NCBI GenBank assembly: GCA_027031875.1
Contig: JALVPH010000074.1
Span: forward strand, 1-8,800
DNA: 8,800 nucleotides
Direction: 5' to 3'
DNA from: Candidatus Parcubacteria bacterium
Lineage (GTDB): Bacteria; Patescibacteriota; Minisyncoccia; Phycocordibacterales; UBA1006
The notes under the pieces were generated by a model. That model had not been told where the DNA came from, did no database searches, and was given only the letters and a program-made list of their open reading frames with translations. The translations under genes were made by a program, and so were the position numbers. Positions 2,076 through 5,497 of this stretch are shown here, piece after piece (position 1 is the stretch's first letter; every line of letters begins with the position of its first letter).

Positions 2076-2113
2076 TCAATGCTCTATTTCACGATCGTGA
2101 AATAGGGCATTGA
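2076..2113. promoter_or_regulatory. 38-bp near-perfect palindrome, core TTTCACGATCGTGAAA (copy 1)
   Basis: The arms 2076-2094 and 2095-2113 are complementary except at one pair (T2083 opposite G2106), which would be a G-U wobble in RNA. The 16-bp core is at 2087-2102. The core recurs at 2224-2239 with different flanking arms. The length, zero-base centre and recurrence suggest a dimeric protein-binding site. TTTCAC/GTGAAA equals the inner half-sites of the ParB site parS (TGTTTCACGTGAAACA), but here GATC separates the halves, so parS is not claimed. Confidence 0.6.
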
Positions 2114-2215
2114 TAAATAGATGATGATATGATGCGGTGTTGGGTGGAGAAAAAGTAAATAGCTCTTCCATCAAGATGAAATAACAAAGATCACATATTT
2201 ATATGCTTTCAGATG

Positions 2216-2440: not shown

Positions 2441-2794
2441 ATGGGCAGGAGACGTAGAAAGAGAGGTCCACGGGGTCCCAAATACGGAACCTGCCCCGTA
2501 TGTGGTATCCACGGTCGATTGACCGTGCACCACATACTCCCCAAATCACTATTTGGGGAGACGGGGGAGCATGTGCTCCTCTGCCGCTCCTGCCACGATG
2601 CAGTTGAGCGGCAAATCCAGCACGTAGAAAGAAAAGAAATACGTGCTGGAAAAAGACCTCATAAAAACGGGAGAGTAAAACTCTCCCGAGAGGTCTACTG
2701 GAACATCGTGTTCCAGTTCGCCGACCGCGGTACGACGGATACGACTCAGAGAAAAAGGAGGAGTCGAAGAGACCGTCGTCGTGGTCGGCGATAA
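2441..2794 (+). CDS. Small arginine-rich HNH/zinc-finger protein with hairpin-tiled coding DNA
   Basis: The 117-residue product has a basic N-terminal tail (RRRRKRGPRG, 3-12), a C-x2-C pair (18 and 21), HH (30-31), a second C-x2-C-H (48, 51, 52), and a very basic tail (104-117, almost all R/K). The four cysteines plus HH and CH match a zinc-stabilised HNH (beta-beta-alpha-metal) nuclease core with a shortened HH-to-CH segment; H44 sits where the central Asn usually is. Nuclease activity is inferred and not certain; the tails suggest nucleic-acid binding. ATG 2441 is the first start in frame, since TAA lies at 2432. No Shine-Dalgarno site is seen. The gene is convergent with the metallopeptidase-like gene. 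GC is about 55% by hand count, well above its neighbours, and the coding DNA is almost all hairpins. Functional family unknown. Confidence 0.8.
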   Translation: MGRRRRKRGPRGPKYGTCPVCGIHGRLTVHHILPKSLFGETGEHVLLCRSCHDAVERQIQHVERKEIRAGKRPHKNGRVKLSREVYWNIVFQFADRGTTDTTQRKRRSRRDRRRGRR

Positions 2795-2817
2795 AAACAG
2801 GATTCACGTCCTGTTTT
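2470..2817 (+). other. Array of about ten contiguous hairpins inside the HNH gene
   Basis: Stems read by eye (arms): H1 2470-2475/2494-2499; H2 2498-2506/2529-2537 with inner 2510-2516/2521-2527; H3 2537-2546/2551-2560 (10 bp, loop cact); H4 2566-2570/2575-2579; H5 2582-2589/2606-2613 with inner 2590-2593/2600-2603; H6 2616-2626/2640-2650 (11 bp); H7 2654-2660/2690-2696 with inner 2668-2676/2680-2688; H8 2697-2705/2709-2717; H9 2718-2726/2783-2791 with inner 2732-2738/2773-2779 and 2742-2747/2761-2766; H10 2794-2802/2809-2817. All listed stems are perfect Watson-Crick. H1 and H2 share two bases, and H2 and H3 share one. Gaps between successive hairpins are 0-7 nt. The stems do not resemble each other in sequence, so this is not a repeat family but repeated selection for local self-complementarity within a protein-coding frame. 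Confidence 0.85.
2794..2817. terminator. Shared bidirectional terminator between convergent genes
   Basis: AAAACAGGA (2794-2802) pairs with TCCTGTTTT (2809-2817) across a 6-nt loop, with A/T tracts on both outer sides. The left arm begins at the last base of the HNH stop codon. The TGA of the convergent minus-strand gene (2804-2806) lies within the loop. It can end both transcripts. Confidence 0.75.
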
Positions 2818-3715
2818 CTTTTCGTTTCAACTTTTCCACGTAATCTCGAAAGTGTTCTCTTGAAGAGACAATGTGAGGAATATCTTCCTCGTGGAGTTCC
2901 CCTTTTTTTATAAGCTCATTCAATCGAATGAGAAACCACAAAAAATCCTCCCCGTAGAACTTCTGAAAATCTCTCAAAAAGAAGAGCTTTCCGTTGAAGT
3001 AGGCACGCTTTACCTTCTCCCAGAAAGAATCAATATCCATTCCTGTCTCCTTCGAGACTCTCGCAACAATAAGGGAGAGTGCGTGCCGTAAACTTTCATA
3101 GGTTCTATTTTTCTCCACATACGAATCTATTTCCTTCTGTGAAATATGAAGGAGTGAACTCAATTCTTTCTTGTGTTTGAGGAGTATTTCATTCGTCAAC
3201 TTTTCTGTAACTGCTTCATTGAATGCCTCCAACTTCTCCCCGATGCTATACCCCACTTTTATCTTTGGTGACTTATCTGGATGAAGGTATACCTCTGAAG
3301 AAGAAAAGAGATGGAGCATTTCGTGGAGGAGCGACGCGTAGTCGTGTAATTTGTTCCCCGTAAGGTAAATCTCAATATTCCTCGTATCCCCATGGAAGAA
3401 GCCTGATTGGCACTTGTTCCTGCTTTTAAGAAAGTGAATTCTTTGTATGAGCTCTCCTAAGTCATGTTCAGAAAGCTCTCTTTCTTCTAGCCCAAGATGT
3501 CTCATTTCTTCGATTACGAAGGCAACGAGATGGGATATTACCTCCATATCCTCTTGAGTTTTTTCTACTTCTCGTGCTGTCGGATCACTCGGCTCAAAGT
3601 AGTATATTGCATCACGTGCATCTTCGTTAAATTCTCCCACCGTTTTCTCGAGCTCTTCCTTCTCTGTCCCTTTCTGTGGAACAAATTCTTCTTTTTTAAA
3701 ACGAAAACGTGACAT
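2804..3715 (-). CDS. Putative zinc metallopeptidase-like protein (HExxH)
   Basis: I do not recognise a named family. The 303-residue product is charged, has no signal peptide or membrane helix, and contains HEMLH at 131-135 followed by FNEAVTE at 165-171. HExxH plus a Glu about 30-36 residues later is the ligand pattern of gluzincin-type zinc peptidases: two His, a catalytic Glu132, and Glu167 or Glu171 as third ligand. Residues 1-60 are acidic/basic and probably flexible; the C-terminal half is helical with a hydrophobic segment around FFLRDF and FLWFLIRL. ATG 3715 is preceded by a good promoter that would start the mRNA about 6 nt upstream, and there is no Shine-Dalgarno site, so translation is probably leaderless. 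The stop lies in the shared terminator loop. Enzyme activity is inference from the motif alone. Confidence 0.7.
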   Translation of the reverse strand: MSRFRFKKEEFVPQKGTEKEELEKTVGEFNEDARDAIYYFEPSDPTAREVEKTQEDMEVISHLVAFVIEEMRHLGLEERELSEHDLGELIQRIHFLKSRNKCQSGFFHGDTRNIEIYLTGNKLHDYASLLHEMLHLFSSSEVYLHPDKSPKIKVGYSIGEKLEAFNEAVTEKLTNEILLKHKKELSSLLHISQKEIDSYVEKNRTYESLRHALSLIVARVSKETGMDIDSFWEKVKRAYFNGKLFFLRDFQKFYGEDFLWFLIRLNELIKKGELHEEDIPHIVSSREHFRDYVEKLKRKENRT

Positions 3716-4543: not shown

Positions 4544-5497
4544 TTATACCTCTCTGTCTTCCTCCCCCTCATATGGTAAGAGTCCTTCCCTCTCAGAAAT
4601 GCGCATAATTGCCTTTACGAGCATCTTCGACACGTCATCGTAGAGGTTGAGGTCGAGAATGTCATCTAGCGAAAACCACGCGACATCATCAAGCCCTTTC
4701 GTATCACCTCCAAGGTGAGGAACGTGGTAGGGTGCTTTTGTGAGGTAGTAGGATACCTGTTTTCGCACCGACCCCCTCTCTGGAGGATACGCAATATATT
4801 CACTCTCACCGAGCTTCTCAATCACCTCAATATCCCAATCTGTTTCCTCTTTTACTTTCTTCACAAGCGACTGTTCCTCACCAAGATGTTCATCAACACT
4901 CCCCTTCGAAAGAGTCCAATACCCAAAGATATCGTGAACCATTCCTATACGGACATTCCCAGAATCATCGACTGAGTACACAACCGCAGCGACTTTTCTA
5001 TCGATTTCCATCTTCTCATAAGGGACATCAAAGGAGACTTTTTCTGCCTCTTTCTCATCATTATAGCGACGATGTGCCTCTCCAAGTATCCCGTTTACAA
5101 AACGATATGATTTTTTGCCCCCAAACTTTTTTGCGAGCTCTACTGCCTCATTAATAATGATACGTTCAGAAGGAACTTCTTCCCCAAAGAGGAGCTCATA
5201 AAGGGAAATACGGAGAATATTCTTATCTACAGTAGAAATTCGTTCAAGAGACCAACCGTCACTCAAATCATTTATGATTGTATCTAAATCTTCCTCTTTC
5301 ATCTCTATCTCGAAAAGATGGTGAAGGATTTCTCGAGATTCCTCTTCATTTAATGGGATTGGAACAAACACCTTGTAGAGATATTCAAGTTCACGCGAAA
5401 AAAAATAGCTATCTTTCTCTTTCTTATTCCTCAACTCTCTTGCGTAGAGAAGTTGAAGCATCATCGCTCGTTGTTGTCTTCTGTGTGTCATATTCAT
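4544..5497 (-). CDS. nusB: NusB antitermination factor fused to a Nudix-like domain
   Basis: Residues 1-145 are NusB, the RNA-binding antitermination factor that works with NusE (S10) on boxA in rRNA operons: HRRQQRAMMLQLLYARE at 5-21, W82, STVDKNILRISLYELL (88-103), IINEAVELAKKFGG (114-127), RFVNGILG (132-139). Residues about 165-300 are a Nudix fold with LSKGSVDEHLGE (196-207) and VKEETDW (215-221). Against the Nudix box G-x5-E-x7-REUxEE, the RE pair is KK (213-214), so the first catalytic Glu is missing and hydrolase activity is doubtful; the EE pair remains. One open frame spans both domains without a break. The start at 5497 is preceded by an extended -10 that places the transcript start on the ATG; an in-frame ATG at 5551 would add an unlikely hydrophobic 18-residue extension overlapping rpmF. 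It sits between rpmF and rnc. Confidence 0.85.
   Translation of the reverse strand: MNMTHRRQQRAMMLQLLYARELRNKKEKDSYFFSRELEYLYKVFVPIPLNEEESREILHHLFEIEMKEEDLDTIINDLSDGWSLERISTVDKNILRISLYELLFGEEVPSERIIINEAVELAKKFGGKKSYRFVNGILGEAHRRYNDEKEAEKVSFDVPYEKMEIDRKVAAVVYSVDDSGNVRIGMVHDIFGYWTLSKGSVDEHLGEEQSLVKKVKEETDWDIEVIEKLGESEYIAYPPERGSVRKQVSYYLTKAPYHVPHLGGDTKGLDDVAWFSLDDILDLNLYDDVSKMLVKAIMRISEREGLLPYEGEEDREV

Follow-up and report, generated by a model that had tools for sequence, protein, structure and literature searches.

Selected chromosomal genes of a Candidatus Parcubacteria bacterium are predicted to fold end to end into short mRNA hairpins

The coding sequence (CDS) of a small HNH gene from a Candidatus Parcubacteria bacterium is one of a class of genes that are folded end to end in prediction. 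The array of hairpins appears to be maintained by selection acting on the mRNA, most likely selection for shielding from ribonucleases that cut single strands, such as RNase J, which would make the message long-lived (we place the probability of this reading at roughly 0.45). It seems likely, more broadly, that the lineage writes distinct chromosomal genes in a second, structural code, in which every stretch of CDS lies in a short mRNA hairpin while letters and register are free as long as the row stays complete; these would be natural ‘super-folder’ messages, most of them beyond RNA-phage genes in their folding. The excess of structure, its restriction to few genes in the part of the genome read, its recurrence in seven genes, its retention in a relative and its sense-strand bias were all obtained by computation. 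We refer to the whole 8,800-nt stretch of DNA that was analyzed (contig JALVPH010000074.1) as the window.

The HNH gene (117 aa) occupies 2441-2794 on the + strand, and its predicted hairpin array covers the whole CDS. Positions 2441-2820 fold with a minimum free energy (MFE) of -198.6 kcal/mol, compared with -114.9 (sd 5.7) for 100 dinucleotide shuffles, none of which was as good (z = -14.8). For the ORF alone, the MFE was -187.2 vs. -113.4 (sd 6.0) in 300 shuffles that preserve both the protein and its codon usage (z = -12.3; best shuffle -131.0). The energy is thus far outside the range of codon-preserving shuffles, in keeping with the original prediction that protein and fold jointly governed the choice of codons. 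In the window, eight further genes (a count that leaves out groES) gave codon-preserving z values of +0.3 to -2.5, so the claim that the neighboring genes lack such folding also held, and we agree that the array is not a repeat expansion. Between 2441 and 2820, 128 of the 132 predicted pairs are Watson-Crick and 4 are G.U; stems described beforehand as perfect are therefore nearly so. An earlier hand count of about 116 pairs (232 bases) for 2470-2817 was close for the pairs, 115 of which lie fully inside (111 Watson-Crick), and low for the bases, 247 of 348 being paired in the predicted fold.

The predicted fold of the gene and its terminator, read in dot-bracket form, consists of ten stem-loop domains lying back to back from 2443 to 2817 (+ strand throughout), as expected from the contiguous hairpins first noticed there. 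The array runs through the terminator as proposed, but it starts at codon 1 rather than codon 10: the outer stem of hairpin 1 (2443-2496; MFE and centroid folds) pairs 2443-2449 with 2490-2496 (7 bp) around an inner stem of 4 bp. Hairpin 2 (2499-2536; MFE fold) has 8 bp (2499-2506/2529-2536) and a nested 7 bp (2510-2516/2521-2527); the inner stem takes another register in L005, the corresponding sequence of the closest relative, a Parcubacteria metagenome-assembled genome of the same genus (G003, JALVJP010000010.1). In the same fold, hairpin 3 (2537-2560) is a 10-bp stem (2537-2546/2551-2560) whose register is shifted by 1 in L005, and hairpin 4 (2563-2582) is an 8-bp stem (2563-2570/2575-2582) with an identical register. 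Hairpin 5 (2583-2612) combines 7 bp (2583-2589/2606-2612) with 4 bp (2590-2593/2600-2603). The 11-bp hairpin 6 (2616-2650; 2616-2626/2640-2650) gives way in L005 to another stem, displaced by 8, and both arms carry amino-acid changes. In hairpin 7 (2654-2696), 7 bp (2654-2660/2690-2696) enclose 9 bp (2668-2676/2680-2688). Hairpin 8 (2697-2717; 9 bp, 2697-2705/2709-2717) contains one compensated pair between the species (2704/2710, CG to TA). Hairpin 9 (2718-2791) stacks 12 bp (2718-2729/2780-2791), 7 bp (2732-2738/2773-2779) and 6 bp (2742-2747/2761-2766), and spans the C-terminal tail to the stop; the hairpin that stands there in L005 is a different one. Finally, hairpin 10 (2794-2817; sequence and fold) is the intrinsic terminator, 10 bp and then a T-rich stretch, and its loop contains the stop codon of a convergent 303-aa gene.

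As a protein, the product resembles other small HNH proteins and shows nothing out of the ordinary. HNH nucleases (PF01844) combine a beta-beta-alpha fold, zinc-binding Cys pairs and a catalytic His. PF01844 is the sole Pfam match, above its cut-off (E = 2.6e-6), and the expected residues are present (C18, C21, C48, C51, H30, H31, H44 and H52). The AlphaFold2 model (mean pLDDT 75) places strands at 24-31 and 44-48 before a helix at 49-68, a predicted order that matches beta-beta-alpha HNH. The protein thus has the features of a PF01844 HNH nuclease, with DNA cleavage a predicted activity. Foldseek with this model returned no PDB match at E < 0.001, and the HNH profile gave distant matches to a group II maturase (6me0, E = 4e-4) and an IscB construct (9nvu, E = 1e-3). 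No match was found among 50,697 phage records. Both termini are Arg-rich; the Arg-rich C-terminus is missing in P0001 and P0002. In P0001, a related HNH protein, Asp stands at the position of window C51, the expected fourth zinc Cys.

Upstream, an A-rich leader ORF of 12 codons, read from the sequence (2419-2457, + strand), overlaps the HNH start in another frame, and L005 has an equivalent A-rich leader of 8 codons (4940-4966) with the same frame offset relative to its HNH start; the overlap in both species may mark translational coupling or a frameshift. Downstream lies the convergent 303-aa gene (2804-3715, - strand), with an HExxH motif (HEMLH) and no hairpin array (z = -1.4 to -2.5 against shuffles). 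Its product has no match in Pfam or NCBIfam; three homologues were found in addition to the protein itself, of which two lie on short contigs, and a structure model (pLDDT 48.5) was too poor for use. This gene accompanies the HNH gene in both species, and the surrounding genes otherwise differ. The window contig carries dnaX-like and rnc genes as well as groES/groEL, named from their sequence. At gathering score, the Rfam scan of the window found tRNA and no other known RNA family.

The HNH gene is one of seven such genes in the 38% of its genome that was read. A first scan used 240-nt segments over sampled contigs and was later extended, with codon-preserving z values computed afterwards. The six further genes encode a 209-aa lipoprotein-like protein (lipo209; L030:964-1593, z = -12.0), a 97-aa lipoprotein-like protein (lipo_L032; L032:12632-12925, z = -12.8), a Thr/Gly-rich protein cut by the contig end (L031:11-478, z = -9.0), a Nudix protein (L060:1065-1535, z = -9.3), a ClpP-like protein (L048:3913-4401, z = -7.8) and a protein with a UVR motif (L032:1859-2416, z = -10.4 and -11.7). 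Family names come from Pfam, and ‘lipoprotein-like’ is our own reading of the N-terminus. Five such genes were found in the related species (L005, L064, L066, L086 and L095), where a 158-aa lipoprotein-like gene reached z = -8.3 and a 431-aa gene z = -7.0 with codon-preserving shuffles. A third genome of the family, from another genus (G015), has a 410-aa gene without a Pfam match whose whole CDS gave z = -15.2. In the related species, the start of a gene for an exported-looking protein, cut by a contig end (L125 2-190, - strand; z = -6.8), is probably a further member. Hairpin genes have atypical codon usage (low coding score). Several of their products are exported-looking or are enzymes possibly harmful in excess, and together the products point to no shared need for stability.

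A scan without a coding filter covered 2,388 ORFs (about 1.0 Mb) in 25 genomes. Those that cleared a pre-filter, 55 in all, were compared with shuffles, and for long ORFs the final 390 nt were used. Eighteen places had z < -6. Eleven of these are in the genome of the window, 7 at the hairpin genes (two via an overlapping frame) and 4 at tRNAs, repeats or other sequences; 4 are in the related species, all at hairpin genes or orthologues; and one is in G009 and one in G366, each of them over tRNA genes, and one in G015 (the 410-aa gene). tRNAs account for the hits in L033, L053, L108 and L131, and other hits fell on REP-like repeats in L031 and on L062:10143-10418. An additional 1,401 ORFs (579 kb) gave seven places at z < -5, none a clear further case: a tRNA in L164, a hit in L176 with a tmRNA partly under it, the borderline L162:13186-13770 (z = -3.8 for the whole, -7.2 for the last part), and four places known only by z values between -5.0 and -5.7, of which L175 has two and L158 and L167 have one each. 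No hairpin-array gene was seen in the parts of G005 and G010 that were read.

Homologues of the array genes in other genomes are mostly unfolded. This was true for lipo209-like genes (L087, z = -3.3; L088, -1.4), Nudix (L084, -1.4) and ClpP (L090-L093, -1.2 to -2.4). Among 15 distant HNH homologues (weak or interrupted matches, L003/L014, L004, L006, L015 and L017, being left out), 14 had z between +1.7 and -3.2 and one was borderline (L022, -5.1). Thus, having an array is not characteristic of HNH genes as such. Several genes for ribosomal proteins and elongation factors in three species (L034, L058, L065 and L076) gave codon-preserving z values of -3.5 to -5, a milder form of the same folding tendency. 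The genome of the window also has near-perfect intergenic palindromes with the core CACGATCGTG (window 2080-2115 and 2214-2248; L032, about 12981-13020; L031, about 4701-4728; L035, about 1261-1273). Some are followed by T runs, and they look like a terminator family or site family of this genome. REP-like intergenic repeats of the types ATTCCCGC..GCGGGAAT and CCGGACTTGATCCGG occur at L030 1780-2060, L031 640-670 and 3850-4110, and L037 60-210; the hairpin genes in L030 and L031 adjoin such repeats.

We compared the strength of folding with known genes by one procedure, using up to 420 nt per gene. Forty E. coli K-12 genes had a median z of -0.15 and a minimum of -3.3 (lpp, -1.4), and two genes of phage MS2 were more strongly folded (coat, z = -6.0, MFE 24% below shuffles; first 420 nt of the replicase gene, z = -5.0, 26%). 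By the same measure, the window HNH gene reached z = -11.9 (67% below shuffles), UVR -11.7, ClpP -10.2, Nudix -10.1 and lipo209 -9.2; arrays of these five kinds ranged from z = -8.4 to -11.9 and lay 35-67% below shuffles. The weakest members in the stretch tested were the 431-aa gene (z = -3.6, 21%) and the Gly-rich gene (z = -6.3, 28%). Most class members are thus more folded in prediction than the two MS2 genes tested alike. The pairing is also more local, with a median span of 18-30 nt in hairpin genes vs. 36-56 nt in four in-frame controls.

The related species retains the array. A protein-level search across 5.8 billion sequences found two close homologues of the HNH protein, and among 148 genomes searched, one besides that of the window had a close match. 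The L005 protein is 73% identical to that of the window, and its gene is equally folded (z = -12.1 with dinucleotide shuffles, -8.6 to -10.5 with codon-preserving shuffles). For codons of identical amino acids (without Met and Trp), 40 of 73 differ in the HNH gene and 103 of 208 in the 303-aa neighbor; synonymous sites are therefore not frozen. Orthologues of lipo209 (74% identity, flanks shared in both species; z = -15.5) and UVR (66% identity; z = -7.3, with a second UVR-like copy at -4.7) are folded too, and across the three families present in both species (HNH, lipo209 and UVR), 37-55% of the codons for unchanged amino acids differ. We then simulated neutral recoding, preserving the related protein and the number of changed synonymous codons (200 simulations per family). 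The related sequence was more stable than every simulation for HNH (-131.8 vs. -84.1, sd 7.7; 6.2 sd below, 0/200), lipo209 (-308.7 vs. -215.0, sd 10.0; 9.4 sd below, 0/200) and UVR (-136.4 vs. -101.4, sd 7.0; 5.0 sd below, 0/200).

Hairpin positions were retained as well. In the aligned part, loop centers coincided within 4 nt in 16 of 17 cases for lipo209 (neutral mean 6.8, maximum 11) and in 7 of 8 for UVR (neutral mean 2.2, maximum 5); for HNH the figure was 7 of 9 (neutral mean 3.5, maximum 8), which taken alone is inside the simulated range. On one alignment, the window and L005 folds share 50 coincident pairs, 45 of them unchanged Watson-Crick, and other HNH stems keep their place but slip in register by 1, 4 or 8 bases. 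Homologues had been expected to show compensated stems. The hairpins do stand at the same places, but pair-by-pair covariation, judged from two sequences per family, is weak: changed HNH pairs remained pairable in 13/38 and 14/40 cases for the two sequences (slid controls, 8-22/38 and 9-18/40), with double changes kept or broken at 7:5 one way and 4:8 the other, and UVR was likewise not above slid controls (25/55 and 21/56; double changes 6:3 and 5:8). Only lipo209 leaned to compensation (17:10 and 21:9). The row of hairpins and the rough place of each are conserved rather than one fixed fold, and the differences in register between the species led us to abandon a covariance-model approach.

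The folding favors the sense strand. The difference between sense and antisense energies was below the shuffle mean in every one of the 13 hairpin sequences. The shift exceeded 2 sd in 10 of them and was strong in lipo209 (-62.6 vs. -18.1, sd 5.3) and Nudix (-56.7 vs. -22.6, sd 5.3); for the window HNH gene and lipo_L032 it was less than 1 sd. Among 26 other genes (4 in-frame controls and 22 non-hairpin homologues), 15 leaned to the sense strand and one by more than 2 sd, with three of the four in-frame controls leaning by 1.1-1.5 sd. The choice of genes is not the source of this bias, since the UVR and ClpP arrays were detected by folding the antisense strand. When G.U and A.C were treated alike as breaks in Watson-Crick palindromes, stem interruptions in 12 sequences comprised 13 G.U, 1 A.C and 12 others (20, 17 and 75 in 20 shuffle sets). 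This preference for G.U over A.C argues for a constraint placed on the sense mRNA, although strand-biased mutation could contribute. Palindromes serving at the level of DNA are disfavored by the same two results.

How might such messages benefit the cell? By analogy with delivered mRNAs, in which a folded CDS is reported to lengthen functional half-life (PMC6883848), the folded CDS would shield the message from single-strand-specific decay, as by RNase J. The array would fold in the cell, ribosomes would open its hairpins one at a time, and the benefit would be slower decay when the message carries few ribosomes. Predicted pairing in 10 hairpin genes and 7 controls was 0.40 vs. 0.57 over the 30 nt preceding the start, an openness that would suit a message intended for translation, and 0.68 vs. 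0.59 within the CDS. In the 30 nt after the stop it was 0.61 vs. 0.72, with no drop because terminators follow, so that this measure leaves the 3' border of the arrays undefined. The RNase J family was found in all five genomes searched (G000, G003, G005, G010 and G021), RNase_Y_N in one (G021), and RNase E/G and Rho in none of the five; these absences are to be read against the 86.5% completeness of the window's genome. RNase III prefers longer stems than most of these arrays have. Since G005 and G010 share the RNase result and no array was seen in the parts of them read, nuclease content alone is insufficient for the lineage and gene pattern. Evasion of Rho was set aside as a benefit, Rho having been found in 0/5 genomes.

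The main rival to protection from decay is a translational throttle, in which the array would be favored for slowing or limiting translation, or for timing protein folding and export, so that proteins such as a nuclease or lipoproteins stay low. We consider this doubtful. In its favor, the hairpins reach through the CDS to the stop, several products look exported or could be harmful in excess, and the members have atypical codon usage with a low coding score. But the stretch of 30 nt ahead of the start is more open, rather than less so, than its counterpart in controls; a brake could be had more cheaply from a few hairpins at the start; and ribosomal-protein and elongation-factor genes, highly expressed as a rule, in some cases lean the same way (z = -3.5 to -5). 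A mutational origin, in which palindromes were perfected by template switching with no benefit to the cell, would account for stems with 128 of 132 pairs Watson-Crick, for registers that slip between species and for the many near-perfect intergenic palindromes of the genome. Template switching, like the folded single-stranded DNA stage also raised in the original prediction, would treat both strands alike, and a sense bias above 2 sd in 10 of 13 sequences vs. 1 of 26, with interruptions of 13 G.U, 1 A.C and 12 others, speaks against both. Window neighbors lack arrays, moreover, and structure is kept beyond neutral recoding, in lipo209 and UVR with the hairpin places too; we therefore regard a purely mutational origin as improbable.

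About as improbable is a dual-function RNA, in which the HNH mRNA would double as a specific structured RNA that its Arg-rich product binds, in a guide-RNA-like or autoregulatory role, as first suggested from the sequence. The Arg-rich termini and the distant profile matches to 6me0 and 9nvu are in its favor; the suggestion fails to anticipate that lipoprotein-like, UVR-motif, Nudix and ClpP-like genes share the array, that much of the pairing register is unconserved, that Rfam finds only tRNA in the window at gathering score and that P0001 and P0002 do without the Arg-rich C-terminus. Similarly improbable is a mobile or viral gene class that has a folded single-stranded stage and was acquired as such. 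The HNH and 303-aa genes do stand in different neighborhoods in the two species, and codon usage is atypical and distribution patchy, yet lipo209 has identical flanks in both species, HNH and lipo209 are single-copy in both, and in IMG/VR the lipo209, UVR and 410-aa proteins have no close relatives. IMG/VR scans, sensitive to close relatives only, gave no hit with the HNH alignment or the 303-aa, lipo209, UVR and 410-aa proteins; one distant HNH relative appeared, and its gene is not folded. Very improbable, finally, is that the hairpins are themselves products, excised from the mRNA as stable small RNAs. The precedent is the decay-generated RNAs of E. coli, where stable structured fragments are reported to arise from CDSs (PMC6156199). 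Here nearly the whole CDS is folded, and the registers and stem sequences of HNH and UVR vary freely, a poor fit with specific regulatory RNAs.

Several known systems resemble the arrays in part. Genome-scale ordered RNA structure (GORS) of positive-strand RNA viruses is alike in that coding RNA is folded throughout by many local stem-loops. In GORS, individual pairs are little conserved. The excess of MFE along coding RNA and its retention between relatives are both found here, but in single chromosomal genes of a bacterium rather than in an RNA virus genome. The mRNA coding regions of MS2-type single-stranded RNA phages are strongly folded too; the HNH, lipo209, UVR, Nudix and ClpP arrays are stronger, the Gly-rich gene is about equal and the 431-aa gene is weaker in the tested stretch, and RNA replication or packaging is not known for these genes. 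IscB/HEARO consists of a RuvC plus HNH protein and HEARO (omega) RNA. Like other RNA-guided HNH systems, it sets a small HNH domain beside a structured RNA; the window protein lacks a Pfam RuvC domain, no HEARO was found at Rfam gathering score, and the structure here is the CDS itself and is common to unrelated genes. There is also a likeness to designed folded mRNAs such as the eGFP sets of Mauger et al. (2019; PMC6883848), in which the protein is kept and codons are picked for a folded CDS. Those mRNAs are engineered and delivered, whereas the present genes are natural and bacterial and their effect is predicted only. Among the titles and abstract openings listed from open PubMed Central papers, a library that leaves out most subscription papers and preprints, none described CDS-wide hairpin arrays in bacterial chromosomal genes.

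Selection on mRNA folding is commonly held to be weak in coding sequences. In this small-genome bacterium, the CDS of a few chromosomal genes appears to be folded throughout and to stay so despite heavy synonymous turnover, and the direction of the folding is the same as in therapeutic-mRNA design. If so, the effect of a fully folded CDS on decay, translation and export becomes testable in bacteria by comparing natural folded genes pairwise with relatives that are unfolded, and the codon usage and synonymous rates of such genes would reflect a second layer of selection.
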